Assembly: GCA_027449865.1 (NCBI GenBank)
Contig: DAIDKV010000101.1
Coordinates: 1 to 64,000, forward strand
Direction: 5' to 3'
DNA length: 64,000 nt
From: Planctomycetales bacterium
GTDB taxonomy: Bacteria; Planctomycetota; Planctomycetia; Isosphaerales; Isosphaeraceae
Shown: in pieces, positions 1,779 to 9,582 of the stretch
Layout of the letters: every line of letters starts with the position of its first letter
Position numbering within the stretch: position 1 is the first letter of the stretch
Notes under the pieces: model-generated
The model's database searches: none
What the model was told of the DNA's origin: nothing
The model's input: the letters and a program-made list of their open reading frames with translations, nothing else
Made by a program: the position numbers and the translations under genes

Positions 1779-2348
1779 ATGAGTCGAGACGAGGATTTGA
1801 TCCAGCGGGTCCGCGCCGGAGACCAGGCGGCGGCGACCGAGTTTTTCGAGGAATATCGGAAGGATCTCCGGCGGGTGATTCAGGCTCGGATGCGGGCGTC
1901 GGGGGTCACCTCGAGGGCGATGGGAGACACGTCCGACATCTTTCAGTTGGTGATGGCGGGGTTCCTGGTCGGCTCGGCGGTCGGTCGGTATCCGCTCGAC
2001 CGGCCCGACGAGGTCCGGGCGGTGCTCGGCCAGATCGCGAGGCGGCGGGTGATCGACCTGGTCCGTCGGATCCGGGCGCGCGGGCCGACGCCCGAGGGGG
2101 GCGTCGGCGCTGGCGGGCTCGATCCCGTGGCGCCCGACCCTGGGCCATTGAGCCACGCGACAATCCGCGACCTGATCGAGGCCGCCAAACAGATGCTCAC
2201 CCCCGCCGAGCGCGAGATCGCCGAAATGCGGAAGGACGGCCTGAGCTGGGAGGAGATCGGACACCAGACCGGGCGGTCGGCCGAAGCCGTCCGGAAGCTC
2301 ATCGACCGCGCCAGCGAACGAATCCTGAGGAAGCTGGAGAAGGAGTGA
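1779..2348 (+). CDS. ECF-type RNA polymerase sigma factor
   Basis: A 189-residue sigma-70-family factor of the extracytoplasmic-function size class. Residues about 5-100 form a region 2-like helical domain (LIQRVRAGDQAAATEFF ... RRVIDLVRRIRAR). Residues about 135-185 are a region 4 helix-turn-helix (LTPAEREIAEMR, WEEIGHQTGRS, AVRKLIDRA). The Gly/Pro-rich linker between them is typical. Its stop lies 7 bases before the next start, and that gene's Shine-Dalgarno AAGGAG sits in the last codons here, so the two are probably translationally coupled. In planctomycetes such sigma factors often lie beside Ser/Thr kinases; the inference is that the kinase controls or reports to this factor. No anti-sigma factor was seen. 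Confidence 0.88.
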   Translation: MSRDEDLIQRVRAGDQAAATEFFEEYRKDLRRVIQARMRASGVTSRAMGDTSDIFQLVMAGFLVGSAVGRYPLDRPDEVRAVLGQIARRRVIDLVRRIRARGPTPEGGVGAGGLDPVAPDPGPLSHATIRDLIEAAKQMLTPAEREIAEMRKDGLSWEEIGHQTGRSAEAVRKLIDRASERILRKLEKE

Positions 2349-2355
2349 TCGTACG

Positions 2356-5127
2356 ATGAGGGACGACCTCGTATCCAACGGCGACTCGATCGCGCCCGGC
2401 CTGGGTCGCCTGCTCCTCGCGATGGTCGCCGACTGGCGATCGGGCGACCGCCGGCCCATCTCCGATTACCTGGCGAGGCAACCCGAACTGGCTGAGAAGC
2501 CCGAGGCGATTCTTGAGCTGATCAACCAGGAAATCGCCCTTCGGCTGGAGTATGGCGAGTCGCCCCGAATCTCGGACTACCTTGCCGACCATCCGTCGCT
2601 GTCGGACGAGCTCGATCGCCTTTTCGTCCTGCACGCGATGGCCTCGGCGATGGGCGACGGCGCGCCGACCCGATCGTCGGCCGACGTCCGTCTCCCGGTT
2701 ATTCCCGGCTATGAGGTCGAACGCCGGATCGGTCGAGGCGGGATGGGGGTCGTCTACCTGGCGCGCGACCTCGCGTTGAAACGTCGGGTAGCGCTGAAGT
2801 TGCTCAATGACCCGGCCCGCGAGAACCCCGCACAGGCTGCCCGGCTCCGTCGCGAGGCCGAGGCCGCGGCGCGTTGCCAGCACCCGAACCTCGTGCCGAT
2901 CTACGAGGTCGGCGAATACGAGGGCGAGACCTATCTCGCCATGGAATATGTCGAGGGCGAGAACCTGGGCGTCGCTCTGGCTGGCGAGTCTCGCCCGCCT
3001 CGACAGGCCGCCGAGTTGGTTGAGGCGATGGCCCGCGCGATCGACCACGCCCACGCGAAGGGCGTGATCCACCGCGATCTCAAGCCGTCAAACGTATTGC
3101 TCGACGCCGAGGGCCGGCCACGAATCGCCGATTTCGGCCTGGCGAAGCTCCGCGACGCCACCACCGAGACCGAGGTGGGCGCGGTCCTGGGAACGCTCGC
3201 CTATCTGGCCCCCGAGCAGGCGCGTGCCGGTGTCGGTGAGGTCGGCCCGAAGGCCGATATTCACGCCCTCGGCGTCATTCTCTACGAGATCCTGACCGGC
3301 CGCCGACCCTATCGAGGGGCGACGCCCGAACAGGCTCTGCACGCGATCCTCCGTGAGCCGGTCGTGCCGCCATCGACGCGACGTCCGGGCATCCCGCGCG
3401 ACCTGGAAGCGATTTGCCTGAAATGCCTTCAAAAAGACCCGGCGCACCGGTATGCGACAGCAGCCGACCTCGCCGAGGATTTGCAGCGGTTCCTCGACGG
3501 CCGGCCGACACTCGCGCGCCCGCTTTCGGCCGCGGGACGAGCTGCCCGATGGGGTCGTCAGAACCGCGTCGCGGTTGCCGTGATCGCCGCCCTGGCGATC
3601 CTCTCAACCCTGAGCGCCTGGCAGGCCGCCCGTGCCACCTCCGCCGAGCGGCTCGCCCGGACCGAGGCGCGGCAGAAGGAGCTGATCAATACGATTCTGG
3701 TCGAAGGCATTCTCGGGCAAGGCGGCCGACATCATCTTCCGATCGACCAGTGGAGCTATGGCGATCTTCAGGTCCGAACGGCGCTCGACATCGGCGCCCG
3801 GGAAATTGACGCGGAGCTTCAGCGCGATCCCGTGGTCGAGGCGGCCGTCCGGCTGGCGATCGGCGAGTCGTATCGGAACCTCGGGCTGTCGGACCTGGCT
3901 CGTCCGCAGCTTGAGCGCGCCCTCTCGCTTCGGACGACGCACCTCGGCGCCCGACACCCCGATACGCTGATCGTCCAGGCTCGCCTGGGTCGGCTACTCG
4001 TCGATGACCACCCGGACGAGGCCGAGCCGATGCTAACCTCGGCGCTCGATGATCTGGCCGCCACGCTCGGGTCAGACCACACCGAGACGCTGGCCGTCAC
4101 GGCGGCGATGGGGTGGCTCCGGTTCCGGCAGGGAAAGCACGACGAGAGCCGGGCCCTGCTCGAAAGGACCGTCGGGCGGCTGCAAACCACCCTCGGCCCG
4201 GCGAATCCCCGGACGCTTGACGCCGTCGAGGAGCTCGCTGTCTCGCTCCTCCGTCAGGGCCAGACGGACGAGGCCCGACGAGTGACGGAAAACACCTTTC
4301 GGCTTCTGGATGAGCCCTCGGGCGCCGAGACCCGCGCTAAGCTGGTCGCGCGATCGCGGCTCCTGGACCTCATCGCGGTCGAGTTCAGGGATTCCGCCTG
4401 GGTGCTCCGCGAGGGCGAGGCGCTGATCTCGCCGATGCAACGGGTTCTCGGACGGAGCGACCCGGCCACGCTCGCGACGATCGCCCGGCTCAGTACGCAC
4501 TATCAGGTCGTCGAGCGGTTCGGCGGGGCCGCGCCCATGCTCGAGGAAGCCCTCGCGGAGTGTCGCAAGGCGATCGATCGCAACCGAGGAGCCGCGATCG
4601 TCCTGATCGGGAACCTGTCCGCGCATCGGCTCAGGCATCGGGACGTCGAGGGGAGCAAGGCCCTGCTCATCGAGGCCCAGGACCTCACCCGGGCGCTCGA
4701 CGGCCCCGATGCCGGGACGACCTCGGCCGGCAATCACACGCTCGTTCAGTTCCTCCTGCTTTTCCGCGAGCACGCCGCCGAGCGGCCTGCTCGCGAGCTG
4801 CTGGCCTATCTGCAACGGAACGCCCCCGAATCGAGCGAACGATCCATCGCCGAGGCCGAGCTGGGCTATTGCCTCCTCTTCCGCAGGAGCCGCGACGAGG
4901 GCGAGGCGAAACGCTTCCACGCCGAGGGCGAGGCGATGCTCGACCGCGCCTTCCGGGCGATCCGGCCCGATCGGCCCGACCTGAACCTCGCGCTCTCGAT
5001 CGAATACCGGCGGTTGCTGGGCCTCGTCGGCCAATGGTACGAGGAGGCCGGAGACGCCGTCCAGGCCGCGACCTGGAAGGCCCGGTTACTCGACTTCGGC
5101 TTCCCCGACAACCCGTTCGGCACCTGA
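2356..5127 (+). CDS. Membrane Ser/Thr protein kinase with repeat C-terminus
   Basis: A 923-residue Hanks-type kinase. Residues 1-115 are a helical N-terminal region of the kind seen before many planctomycete kinases. The kinase domain starts near 116: glycine loop IGRGGMGVVYLA, VALKLL lysine, HRDLKPSN catalytic loop near 238, DFGLAK near 257, APEQ in the activation segment. A single membrane segment lies near 404-425 (VAVAVIAALAILS), so the kinase is predicted cytoplasmic and the remainder beyond the membrane. Residues about 450-900 are alpha-helical with degenerate TPR-like repeats (AEPMLTSALDDL, ARPQLERALSL). All key catalytic residues are present. It follows the ECF sigma gene after 7 bases with the RBS inside the upstream gene, suggesting a shared signalling module. 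The ligand is unknown. Confidence 0.9.
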   Translation: MRDDLVSNGDSIAPGLGRLLLAMVADWRSGDRRPISDYLARQPELAEKPEAILELINQEIALRLEYGESPRISDYLADHPSLSDELDRLFVLHAMASAMGDGAPTRSSADVRLPVIPGYEVERRIGRGGMGVVYLARDLALKRRVALKLLNDPARENPAQAARLRREAEAAARCQHPNLVPIYEVGEYEGETYLAMEYVEGENLGVALAGESRPPRQAAELVEAMARAIDHAHAKGVIHRDLKPSNVLLDAEGRPRIADFGLAKLRDATTETEVGAVLGTLAYLAPEQARAGVGEVGPKADIHALGVILYEILTGRRPYRGATPEQALHAILREPVVPPSTRRPGIPRDLEAICLKCLQKDPAHRYATAADLAEDLQRFLDGRPTLARPLSAAGRAARWGRQNRVAVAVIAALAILSTLSAWQAARATSAERLARTEARQKELINTILVEGILGQGGRHHLPIDQWSYGDLQVRTALDIGAREIDAELQRDPVVEAAVRLAIGESYRNLGLSDLARPQLERALSLRTTHLGARHPDTLIVQARLGRLLVDDHPDEAEPMLTSALDDLAATLGSDHTETLAVTAAMGWLRFRQGKHDESRALLERTVGRLQTTLGPANPRTLDAVEELAVSLLRQGQTDEARRVTENTFRLLDEPSGAETRAKLVARSRLLDLIAVEFRDSAWVLREGEALISPMQRVLGRSDPATLATIARLSTHYQVVERFGGAAPMLEEALAECRKAIDRNRGAAIVLIGNLSAHRLRHRDVEGSKALLIEAQDLTRALDGPDAGTTSAGNHTLVQFLLLFREHAAERPARELLAYLQRNAPESSERSIAEAELGYCLLFRRSRDEGEAKRFHAEGEAMLDRAFRAIRPDRPDLNLALSIEYRRLLGLVGQWYEEAGDAVQAATWKARLLDFGFPDNPFGT

Positions 5128-5973: not shown

Positions 5974-6067
5974 CGGGCCCGACGGCTCGCGGCGATCGGC
6001 GTACTTGGAACCTTTCAGGTCCGTCGCGAATCGGATAGACTGGGCCGATCCCTTCGAGGTCCCCGTT

Positions 6068-7837
6068 GTGGAATACCAATATATCGAGGCCAGCGGATCC
6101 TTGAGTCGCCCCTCCTCGGGGTCGTCTCCGGCTGTCCCGGGAGCACCCGGTGGGGGCGAGTTGCCGATCTGGCGGGGGAAGGTCGTCCCGCGGCAGCTCT
6201 GCGAGGCCGTCCCCGAGAGTCTGGCGCGCGAGTGCCTTGTCTTCCCGATCGCGGAGGAAGGTGAGAAGCTCGTACTCGCCGCGGTCGAACCCGACGACAT
6301 CGGTAACCTCGACAAGCTTACCTTTGTTCTCGGGAGACCGGTCCGACTTATCGCCGCCTCACGCGCGGGGGTTCAGGCGCTCATCGAGACATATTTCGGC
6401 CCGATGCAACGCGGTGGACCTGTCGATTCGATGCACCAGGAACGCATGGACGCGGCACAGCTTCGCTCGATGCTATCTCGAGACGCTCTCATCGCCTACC
6501 GCCATTCCGAATCGTCTCTCTTTCGCCATCGCGTCGAGGACCCGTCGCCATCCGCGTCCGGGCCTCGAACCGGCCTCGACACCTCGCACACCATCGGAGA
6601 CACGGGCGTGTGGTTCTACGTCGTTGAGGAGGGCCAGCGGGTGCTGGTGCGAAACCCCGACGGCACGATGGAGGTCGTCGAGGGCCCGCGCCGGGTCTGG
6701 CGCGGTCGCCGGGAATTTCAGCCGATGCTCCACCACGTCGCGCACCCGGGCGATTATCTGATCGTCCGATTCCGGGACGGCCGGCAGGAGCACCTCGCCG
6801 GACCGGCCGACCTCTGGTTCGATCACCGCATCCACCAGAAAGTCACCTGCGAGGAGATGCTCCAGGTCGCCGCCAAGGAGGCGGTCGTCGTCTACTCGCA
6901 GAAGGAGGGAACCACCTCGGTCCAGCGCCGGATCGAGTACGGCCCGACCCTCTTCATGCCCCGGCCGGGCGAGTGGCTGCACCGGTTCGTCTGGCACGCC
7001 TCCACCGGCGGCTCGCAGGGCGTGAAAAAGGTTCCCAAGGGGCTGGTCTTCCACAAGCTCTGGCTGATGCCGGATCAGATGTACCACGATGTGGATGACG
7101 TTCGAACGTCGGATGACGCCGTGCTGACGATTCGCCTGATGATCTTCTTCGAGCTGCTCGACATCGACCGGATGCTTGAGACAACCCACGACCCGATCGG
7201 CGACTTCGTCAACGCGGCGACCTCCGACGTGGTCGACTTCACCGGCCGGCACGACTTCGAGTCATTCAAGCGGCACACCGAGAGCCTCAACGAGCTGGAA
7301 ACCTACCGACAGCTCACGTCGAGGGCCGCACAATGCGGCTACCGGATCAACAAGGTGGTCTATCGGGGCTACGGAGCGCCCGACCGGCTCCAGCAGATGC
7401 ACGACCAGGCGATCGAGGCACGAACGCGGCTCCAGCTCGATCGAGCGACCGAGCAGCAGGCCCAGGAACTGGAGAGCTACAAGCTGGAGAGCCAGATGCA
7501 GCGCGCTGGGAAGCGTCGCCACGAGCAGACGGCCGAGGTCGCGCACCAGCTCGAACTCGACCGGCAGAAGCAGGAGGCCGAACTCCGCGCCCGGGAGGCA
7601 TCGTCCACCTCTCGACGCGAGCAGAACCGGCTCGACGCCGAGGCTCGCGCCGACCGCCAGGCACGCCTCGACCGCATCCGTCGCGAGCACCTCGGCGAAT
7701 TGCAGCGGCTCGGTGTGGACCTGACCAGCTACCTCACGCGCCACCGCGCCGACCGCGTGATCGAGCTTCGAGGCCCAGCCGACGGCGCCACCCACCTGCA
7801 CATCGACCCGGCGTCGAAGGCCGACGGATCGGCCTGA
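6068..7837 (+). CDS. Major-vault/SPFH-like protein with N-terminal MshEN domain
   Basis: About 589 residues from the GTG at 6068, preceded by GAGGT; the longer TTG frame from 5900 would overlap the previous gene by 74 bases. Residues about 32-111 match the type II secretion ATPase N-terminal (MshEN) fold: LARECLVFPI, EGEKLVLAAVEPDD, RPVRLIAASRAGV, ending ETYFG. No ATPase follows. Residues about 178-320 are short beta units resembling major-vault repeats (VLVRNPDGTMEVVEGP, HPGDYLIVRF, RPGEWLHRFVWH). Residues about 325-445 resemble an SPFH/shoulder domain (SDDAVLTIRLMIFFEL, DPIGDFVNAATSDVVDF). A long charged coiled coil (about 445-545) follows, like the vault cap helix. Role is unknown; self-assembly into a shell or ring is an inference. 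MshEN domains can bind c-di-GMP in other proteins, which would suggest nucleotide-regulated assembly, untested here. Confidence 0.65.
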   Translation: MEYQYIEASGSLSRPSSGSSPAVPGAPGGGELPIWRGKVVPRQLCEAVPESLARECLVFPIAEEGEKLVLAAVEPDDIGNLDKLTFVLGRPVRLIAASRAGVQALIETYFGPMQRGGPVDSMHQERMDAAQLRSMLSRDALIAYRHSESSLFRHRVEDPSPSASGPRTGLDTSHTIGDTGVWFYVVEEGQRVLVRNPDGTMEVVEGPRRVWRGRREFQPMLHHVAHPGDYLIVRFRDGRQEHLAGPADLWFDHRIHQKVTCEEMLQVAAKEAVVVYSQKEGTTSVQRRIEYGPTLFMPRPGEWLHRFVWHASTGGSQGVKKVPKGLVFHKLWLMPDQMYHDVDDVRTSDDAVLTIRLMIFFELLDIDRMLETTHDPIGDFVNAATSDVVDFTGRHDFESFKRHTESLNELETYRQLTSRAAQCGYRINKVVYRGYGAPDRLQQMHDQAIEARTRLQLDRATEQQAQELESYKLESQMQRAGKRRHEQTAEVAHQLELDRQKQEAELRAREASSTSRREQNRLDAEARADRQARLDRIRREHLGELQRLGVDLTSYLTRHRADRVIELRGPADGATHLHIDPASKADGSA

Positions 7838-7902: not shown

Positions 7903-9582
7903 TCAAAGCATCGGCAGGTCGAGCTTTTCCTCGCTTGCGATGCGGCGGAGCTTGTCCTGGGCTCGCGACTCGATCTGGCGGACGCGCTCCTTGGTAATCC
8001 CGAGCTCGCGGCCGAGTTGTTCGAGCGTTTGCTCGCTCGCGCCGCCAAGGCCGAACCGGCTGATGATGATCTTCCGCTCGCGGTCGTCGAGCCGACCGAG
8101 CATTCCCTTGACGGCCTCCTGCATCCGCTTCAGAGCACTCTCATATTCGTGCTCGTCGGTCCGGTTATCGGCGGCGGCCTCGAACATCTCCTCGTGGCCC
8201 GTGACGAACCGATCGCGGCGGTAGTTCTCCTCGGGGATGGTCCGGGCGAAGTTCTTCATGATCGCCCACGAGGCATAGGTGCTGAACTTGTTTCCGCGGG
8301 AGAAGTCAAACTTCTCGACGGCGCGGATCAGCGACATGTTCCCATCGGAGACCAGCTCGAAGAAGTTGTTCGAGGGTCCGACGTGGCGTTTGGCGATCGA
8401 GACGACCAGCCGCAGATTCGCCCGGATGATCTGGTTCTTGACGGCCAGCGCCTCTTCCTGGAGCCGCTCGATCTCGTCGAGGTCGGCCGTCCGGGCCTTG
8501 GTTGGGTCGAGGTCCTGCCGCATCTCGTGGGCACGGAACTTCAGGTAGTTCATCTTCCGGAAGAGGTGTTTCTCCTGCTCGCGATCGAGCAGGGGGACCT
8601 CATAAAGACTTGCCAGGTACGGCGGCAGACCCTTCGGCGCCTTCGGCCGGCGGGGCGCCTTGCCGTCGGCCGGTTCGGGCATGGGCCCGGTGATCACCTC
8701 GGCATTCGCCGCGTCGTGGAAGCTTTCGTGGTCGATGAATTCCAGCTTGTTCGACAGAATCCGCTTCGCCCTCATCTCATTCAGGACGCGATAGATGCTT
8801 GAGCGCGTACGCCCGAACTGGCGGGCGAGCACCTCGGCGGATACCCCCATACGCGAGCGCCGATAGATCTGAGCCTTGGCTTCATCGTCGAGCGGCGGCA
8901 CGCTGTTCGGGAAGATCGCCCGATCGGGATTCTCACGATCGTAGGTCTTCAACGTCGATCGGACCGTCTCGGTAGAGCGTGACATCTTGCGTGCGATCCT
9001 CCGCGCGATCTCGACCAGGCCGGCCTGTCCTGGGCGTACCAGCGCCATGCGGCGAGCGCGTCGGATGATTTCCTCACGCTCGGCCTCGGTGAGTTGCCGG
9101 AACCGCGATCCCCTCTCCACCTGCACGCGATGGGCCGTGACGAACCGCTGCAGGCTGGACTCCAGGAACCCGACCTTCGTTCGGCCGTCGATCACAAATC
9201 GACGTGCCACCAAACCCCGACGCCGCCAACGTGCCACTGTCCGTGACGAGACGTTGTAGCGGCGGCTGACCTCGTCCACCGTCAAAACCGGCTCGGAAAT
9301 ATGCTCGATCGCCTGTCGCGCTGTCGCCGAGAGATCCTCGACGAAAAGCGTCAGGTCGTGACGGACATCCGGCCCGTCAAGGACGAGCGCCGGCCATCCA
9401 TCCGGCCGAAAGCCCGTGATCCGAAAGCAGACATATTCGTAAGGATACCTCTTGCCCTCGTCGATCTCCGACAAAAGGGCCTCGGCCCGGTTGATCTGCT
9501 CGAGCCTCCGATCCTTCGGCGCGTACCGGGTCTGTTGATCCTTCAACTGTTTCATCGCGGGATGACGGTACATCTTCCCCAT
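7903..9582 (-). CDS. Sigma-70 factor with multi-HTH N-terminal extension
   Basis: 559 residues. The C-terminal half is a primary-type sigma factor: region 2 (LRLVVSIAKRHV, DGNMSLIRAVEKFDFSRG, FSTYASWAIMKNFAR, residues about 370-440) and region 4 (ISRFGLGG, LEQLGRELGITKERVRQIE, about 495-545). Only about 60 residues separate them, so a full region 3 appears to be missing. The N-terminal part is unusual. Residues about 95-145 are a MerR/excisionase-type HTH (LTVDEVSRRYNVSSRTVARW). Two further HTH-like segments follow (LVEIARRIARKMSRSTETVR; AEVLARQFGRTRSSIYRVL). Residues 1-90 are not recognised. The ATG at 9582 follows a GGAAG-type RBS. It is convergent with the vault-like gene. It may be a planctomycete alternative or group-2 sigma factor. 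Confidence 0.85.
   Translation of the reverse strand: MGKMYRHPAMKQLKDQQTRYAPKDRRLEQINRAEALLSEIDEGKRYPYEYVCFRITGFRPDGWPALVLDGPDVRHDLTLFVEDLSATARQAIEHISEPVLTVDEVSRRYNVSSRTVARWRRRGLVARRFVIDGRTKVGFLESSLQRFVTAHRVQVERGSRFRQLTEAEREEIIRRARRMALVRPGQAGLVEIARRIARKMSRSTETVRSTLKTYDRENPDRAIFPNSVPPLDDEAKAQIYRRSRMGVSAEVLARQFGRTRSSIYRVLNEMRAKRILSNKLEFIDHESFHDAANAEVITGPMPEPADGKAPRRPKAPKGLPPYLASLYEVPLLDREQEKHLFRKMNYLKFRAHEMRQDLDPTKARTADLDEIERLQEEALAVKNQIIRANLRLVVSIAKRHVGPSNNFFELVSDGNMSLIRAVEKFDFSRGNKFSTYASWAIMKNFARTIPEENYRRDRFVTGHEEMFEAAADNRTDEHEYESALKRMQEAVKGMLGRLDDRERKIIISRFGLGGASEQTLEQLGRELGITKERVRQIESRAQDKLRRIASEEKLDLPML

Follow-up and report, generated by a model that had tools for sequence, protein, structure and literature searches.

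Do bacteria build shells from vault-type subunits, and what would such a shell be joined to? The question is raised by a gene on the forward strand (6068-7837) of the window, the whole 64,000-nucleotide stretch analyzed here, which comes from a Planctomycetales bacterium of the family Isosphaeraceae (GenBank assembly GCA_027449865.1, contig DAIDKV010000101.1, positions 1 to 64,000). Our analysis indicates that this gene probably encodes a vault-like cage subunit: its product is predicted to carry beta repeats, an SPFH-type shoulder and a long cap helix in the same order as the major vault protein (MVP), with an MshEN domain of the kind found on GspE/PilB ATPases placed ahead of them. We refer to this protein and its relatives as mini-vaults.

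The reading frame is open throughout (589 residues, GTG start at 6068, stop at 7837), and its codon-position GC of 0.71/0.44/0.83 is typical of a real high-GC gene. We take the start coordinates to be right because relatives begin at the same residue (MEYRYL..., MDYELL...; MEYRYLRARGALN, MDYELLKRRGALN) and because a GAGG, read from the sequence, lies 8 nt 5' of the GTG. A genome search recovered no second copy or paralogue; contigs C104 and C235 carry the genome's other MshEN matches, which belong to GspE/PilB-type ATPases. The features of the gene are given below, with the repeat boundaries set from the AlphaFold2 model and inspection.

6056..6059, + strand: Shine-Dalgarno-like GAGG, 8 nt before the GTG (read from sequence)
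6068..7837, + strand: mini-vault gene, 589 residues, GTG start, stop included (start common to relatives)
6068..6109, + strand: N-terminal peptide MxYxYxxxxGAL[QN]E, here MEYQYIEASGSLSR, residues 1-14 (alignment)
6110..6181, + strand: variable linker, predicted disordered, residues 15-38, without RLG cyclic di-GMP (c-di-GMP) motifs (model and motif scan)
6182..6406, + strand: MshEN-family C-terminal subdomain (GspE N1-type), residues 39-113 (PF05157, E=6.9e-12)
6407..6460, + strand: linker common to GspEs of the same class, residues 114-131 (consensus ESVDSMLxEFTDTAIDF; here GGPVDSMHQERMDAA)
6461..6607, + strand: variable linker, helix weakly predicted, residues 132-180 (AlphaFold2 model, alignment)
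6608..6733, + strand: vault-like beta repeat 1, residues 181-222 (model strands; hhalign to bacterial MVP repeats)
6734..6856, + strand: vault-like beta repeat 2, residues 223-263, 31% identical to repeat 1 (model strands, hhalign)
6857..7024, + strand: vault-like beta repeat 3, residues 264-319 (model strands, hhalign)
7025..7378, + strand: SPFH/MVP-shoulder-like domain, residues 320-437 (Foldseek: MVP, then SPFH)
7382..7708, + strand: long cap-type helix, 109 residues, 439-547 (AlphaFold2; same in a core-only relative)
7709..7813, + strand: C-terminal tail GVDLTxYLTxxRADxVIELRG...HLHL, residues 548-582, a candidate cap-closing strand (alignment)

Predicted fold and its relation to MVP

An AlphaFold2 model of the window protein, built on the 44-row family alignment, had an overall predicted local distance difference test (pLDDT) score of 79.6 and exceeded 90 in most of the core. 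It consists of strands (residues 183-363), a helix-rich SPFH half (366-422), a closing strand (425-436) and a single helix (439-547). When this model was compared with the PDB using Foldseek, whose E-values are nominal, the first 12 matches were all MVP (E 2.5e-15 to 2.5e-10); L008, a core-only relative of 401 residues that was modelled separately, likewise had MVP in its first 11 places (best E=1.9e-12). A search of viral structures gave essentially SPFH/Band 7 proteins and no closer viral relative. Residues 181-319 offer space for three repeats of the kind V..GE..VV...DG....l.GP..vW, and MVP repeats have been called unique to the vault (PMC13100048). The predicted models show the MVP order of repeats, SPFH shoulder and long cap helix, with MVP as the best fold match, and a vault-type fold is well supported by prediction.

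At the sequence level, the family profile aligned with the repeats of true planctomycete MVPs (hhalign E=1.9e-6 and 1.5e-6, probability about 90%). The family shoulder segment aligned with bacterial MVP more weakly than the repeats did, at E=0.0024, and still beat 30 of 30 column-shuffled controls (best control 0.085). Across the 44 family members Pfam gave weak matches only, to MVP_shoulder (7/44, best 0.017), Band_7 (7/44, best 0.0013) and Vault_3 (2/44, best 0.096), and on the single window sequence it detected neither the vault-like repeats nor SPFH. The true MVP L064, as a positive control, scored 109.5 bits to MVP_shoulder.

Several results weigh against a vault-like cage subunit. Even at E up to 10, the MVP_shoulder and Vault models of Pfam return nothing for the window protein, a profile search of the genome with these models was negative, and the family hidden Markov model (HMM) profile did not match MVP among the PDB sequences. 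Normalised by query, the TM-scores to MVP are a modest 0.26-0.50, and root-mean-square deviations (rmsd) are high, in part because the protein, with its hinges and long helix, does not superpose as a rigid unit. Comparison of the relatives' neighbors in BLASTP clusters revealed no conserved neighbor or operon partner apart from synteny within lineages (TrpB upstream in Gemmataceae, for example), and the window's own GspE-type linker is partly degenerate (GGPVDSMHQERMDAA). At the level of sequence the link to MVP is weaker than at that of fold, and the missed Pfam MVP_shoulder cut-off marks the window protein as vault-like rather than as an MVP ortholog.

The sequence-only reading of this locus had described the order MshEN, vault-like repeats, SPFH/shoulder domain and long helix, which Pfam, AlphaFold2 and Foldseek together bear out. 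Its comparison with the repeats-shoulder-cap helix order of eukaryotic MVP agrees with MVP being the best fold match, and the extra N-terminal MshEN-family domain without an attached ATPase is what Pfam recovers. Of the checks it had suggested, the fold comparison returned similarity to both MVP and SPFH proteins with Foldseek, and the profile search split: the MshEN profile matches, and the vault profiles stay below the Pfam cut-off. Neither outcome that it had named as refuting, a fold unlike MVP repeats or SPFH or an MshEN region missing its profile, was observed.

Family architectures and full-length bacterial MVPs

A scan of genome contigs recovered 42 loci as relatives, and the core occurs in 12 of 392 planctomycete genomes, the window's own included. 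Matches in genomes G087, G167 and G327 were rejected as vault-like proteins, being MshEN domains of GspE. Three architectures make up the family across Planctomycetota and Myxococcota: the N-terminal peptide followed by the core (Nannocystis, other Myxococcota and some planctomycete lineages); the peptide, MshEN and the core (Singulisphaera, Gemmata, Zavarzinella, Limnoglobus, Bythopirellula, related lineages and the window); and the core alone (further planctomycetes). The Nannocystis core (L041-L047), which lacks MshEN, is about 61% identical to that of the window, and several core-only planctomycete proteins are about 44% identical to it; this closeness suggests transfer between phyla.

The core retains 56 invariant columns over the 44 sequences, and its most conserved part is the SPFH/shoulder-like domain (66-78% mean pairwise identity in the family). 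Both ends of the protein are conserved as well. G10 of the N-terminal peptide, a low-pLDDT segment present also in relatives without MshEN, is found in 37 of 38 alignment rows, and D562 and H578 of the C-terminal tail, which is unfolded in the monomer model, in all 44 rows. Conserved segments that remain largely unfolded in a monomer model would be expected of parts that fold only in the assembly or against a partner. The N-terminal peptide (YxYxxxxGALQE at 6068-6109 and in relatives), which persists whether or not MshEN is present, might serve as a self-contact, a partner tag or a cargo tag.

Bacterial MVP-like genes have been noted before. Full-length MVP genes (L064-L070), well above the Pfam cut-off, are present in 7 of the 392 planctomycete genomes, to be set against the description of vaults as exclusive to eukaryotes in a passage of PMC11855390. 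These true MVPs of the same phylum reach Pfam E=1e-31, and L064 matches PDB MVP at 1e-32; since they pass Pfam and match PDB MVP by far, mini-vaults and MVPs are separate families. Mini-vaults share with eukaryotic and full-length bacterial MVPs the beta repeats, SPFH-type shoulder and long cap helix in the same order, as well as the lack of a membrane segment, judged for the mini-vault by hydropathy. They differ in having three repeats in place of the nine of eukaryotic MVP, a 109-residue helix, a conserved N-terminal peptide, a different C-terminal tail and the extra MshEN, and in falling below the Pfam MVP_shoulder and Vault models that true MVPs exceed. No genome of the 392 encodes both a mini-vault (12 genomes) and a true MVP (7), which is uninformative at a chance expectation of about 0.2.

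Origin of the MshEN domain

The PF05157 (MshEN) match at residues 39-113 scores 45.6 bits against a cut-off of 23.1, and the family profile also matched PilB structures (E=4.5e-9). In NCBIfam, this stretch aligns to PilB and GspE at their N-terminal ends and to a portion of NfrB, a glycosyltransferase activated by c-di-GMP; each alignment falls below the whole-protein cut-off. Positions 4-91 of TIGR02533, the classical GspE model, align to residues 48-133, and the captured piece is the C-terminal MshEN subdomain, the part with which that model opens. Pfam found no ATPase family in the window protein, and the NCBIfam GspE/PilB matches are confined to the N-terminal part of the models. Relative to the N-terminal domain of GspE/PilB ATPases (MshEN, T2SSE_N), the mini-vault thus retains the C-terminal subdomain and linker, closest to those of same-class GspEs, and lacks the N-terminal c-di-GMP bundle, the N2 domain and the ATPase domains, with the retained piece joined to a vault-like protein.

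The common ancestry of this piece with GspEs of the window's own class is evident at the sequence level. An HMM of the vault-family MshEN scores 82-97 bits against those GspE-type ATPases, compared with at most 65 bits for the remaining MshEN proteins of the phylum that were examined. The linker ESVDSMLxEFTDTAIDF is shared by the same-class GspEs and most members of the vault family, and is absent from all other MshEN loci examined. In the MshEN domain tree, 21 of the 22 vault-type MshENs group with four same-class GspEs (support 82/91; the columns are few and the grouping weak). The core tree needs 1 change to explain the distribution of MshEN: a single branch (support 87/87) sets its 22 carriers apart, and these span Isosphaeraceae, Gemmataceae and Pirellula-type families. 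Most simply, MshEN was gained once, in one planctomycete clade; the simplest account would be that a resident mini-vault gene captured the GspE N-domain and its linker on one occasion and that several planctomycete families retained them thereafter.

A putative cage, its alternatives and its setting

We propose that copies of the window protein assemble into a soluble bacterial mini-vault, a ring or half-cage of identical subunits. The three vault repeats would form a short wall, the SPFH/shoulder domain a hinge, and a bundle of the 109-residue helices a cap, which the conserved C-terminal tail would close. MshEN, together with the N-terminal peptide, may decorate the open rim or waist, a placement suggested by the N-termini of MVP, which meet at the vault waist (PMC13347060).

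The captured MshEN subdomain and the peptide that follows it would serve as a docking tag, rather than as a c-di-GMP sensor, and recruit the cage to whichever membrane platform or partner the GspE N-domain uses (GspL/PilM-type). In type II secretion, the N-terminal domain of GspE binds the GspL platform, as known from work on EpsE and EpsL, and docking to a secretion or pilus platform is suggested because the captured piece is of the same kind. A PilM homologue on contig C64, in a genome that also encodes GspE/PilB ATPases, allows such docking and does not show it. By this analogy the docking role is put forward tentatively. More doubtful is the wider picture in which planctomycetes and myxobacteria build mini-vaults and one planctomycete lineage has coupled the shell to a secretion or pilus apparatus through an ATPase docking domain, so that the cage would assemble at a type II secretion or pilus-like machine, or store or deliver something on its behalf.

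Alternatively, MshEN might be a structural spacer or an extra oligomerisation module that thickens the rim with no external partner, which we regard as possible and hold just as tentatively as docking. Its faster evolution relative to the core (44% vs 61-78% identity) and the relatives that do without it would fit a spacer. Against this, the domain is kept in 22 of 22 members of a clade spanning several families, and the attached GspE linker is more conserved than MshEN itself (58% vs 44% mean pairwise identity in the vault family), which suggests a specific contact.

It is unlikely that the protein is a bacterial membrane scaffold of the flotillin or HflK/C type, whose vault likeness would stem solely from a common SPFH domain and long helix. 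Erlin, HflK/C, flotillin, prohibitin and stomatin do match the window model from E=4e-7 downward (stomatin SPFH with TMt 0.74-0.77 and rmsd 2.5-2.8 A), Band_7 is among the weak Pfam matches of seven members, and canonical SPFH proteins (HflK/C, flotillin, erlin, QmcA) also pass from the SPFH domain into a long helix and form half cages, as three repeats might. MVP, however, outranks all of them by about 8 orders of magnitude in E for the window model and 4 for core-only L008, and the repeat region, which precedes and lies outside the SPFH domain, aligns independently with MVP repeats, which speaks against the SPFH fold being all that is common. Moreover, canonical members as a rule bind membranes through motifs upstream of SPFH (PMC13100048), whereas hydropathy revealed no transmembrane-like segment there in the mini-vault, which may yet have an amphipathic or lipid anchor; hydrophobic 19-mers above 1.6 occur only in the predicted SPFH strand region.

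Returning to the cage with MshEN at its rim, the sequence-only reading had also imagined an assembly responsive to a nucleotide such as c-di-GMP, and this part did not hold up. In MshE and PilF, c-di-GMP is held by an N-terminal four-helix subdomain through two 24-residue RLGxx... motifs, with a single contact from the C-terminal MshEN subdomain (PMC5013675, PMC11731258). The mini-vault protein has that C-terminal subdomain alone, after a variable disordered stretch, and lacks the four-helix bundle. A scan with the relaxed published motif, allowing leucine also at position 1, found it in 0 of 44 family members and in none of the scanned same-class GspEs (L002, L015-L017); the same scan found two copies in the PilB-type ATPase L003 of this genome. 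With both the binding subdomain and the motif absent, a c-di-GMP-responsive switch is very improbable despite the MshEN family match and the intact motifs of that ATPase, by which the signal may exist in the cell, and c-di-GMP control was rejected.

The mini-vault gene is flanked by a PhyH dioxygenase gene upstream and a convergent sigma factor gene downstream. The latter (7903-9582, - strand) encodes a sigma-70 factor in which regions 2 and 4 are recognised; its N-terminal part is unusually long and yields several helix-turn-helix matches. Farther upstream (1779-5127, + strand), an ECF-like sigma factor is followed directly by a Ser/Thr kinase with TPR repeats; such kinases lie near the mini-vault gene in six relatives too, which may just reflect their commonness.

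The open PMC literature, as far as it was covered (in part), holds no description of a three-repeat vault-like protein, a mini-vault family or a vault-like shell fitted with an MshEN domain. The function of vaults has long been an open question, into which the mini-vault offers a bacterial way. The vault-like core of about 400 residues occurs in culturable genera (Singulisphaera, Gemmata, Zavarzinella, Limnoglobus and Nannocystis), making gene deletion and in situ imaging possible, and the capture of MshEN provides a concrete hypothesis on what such a cage connects to. The family also bears on how the vault fold could arise from SPFH cages by the addition of repeats.
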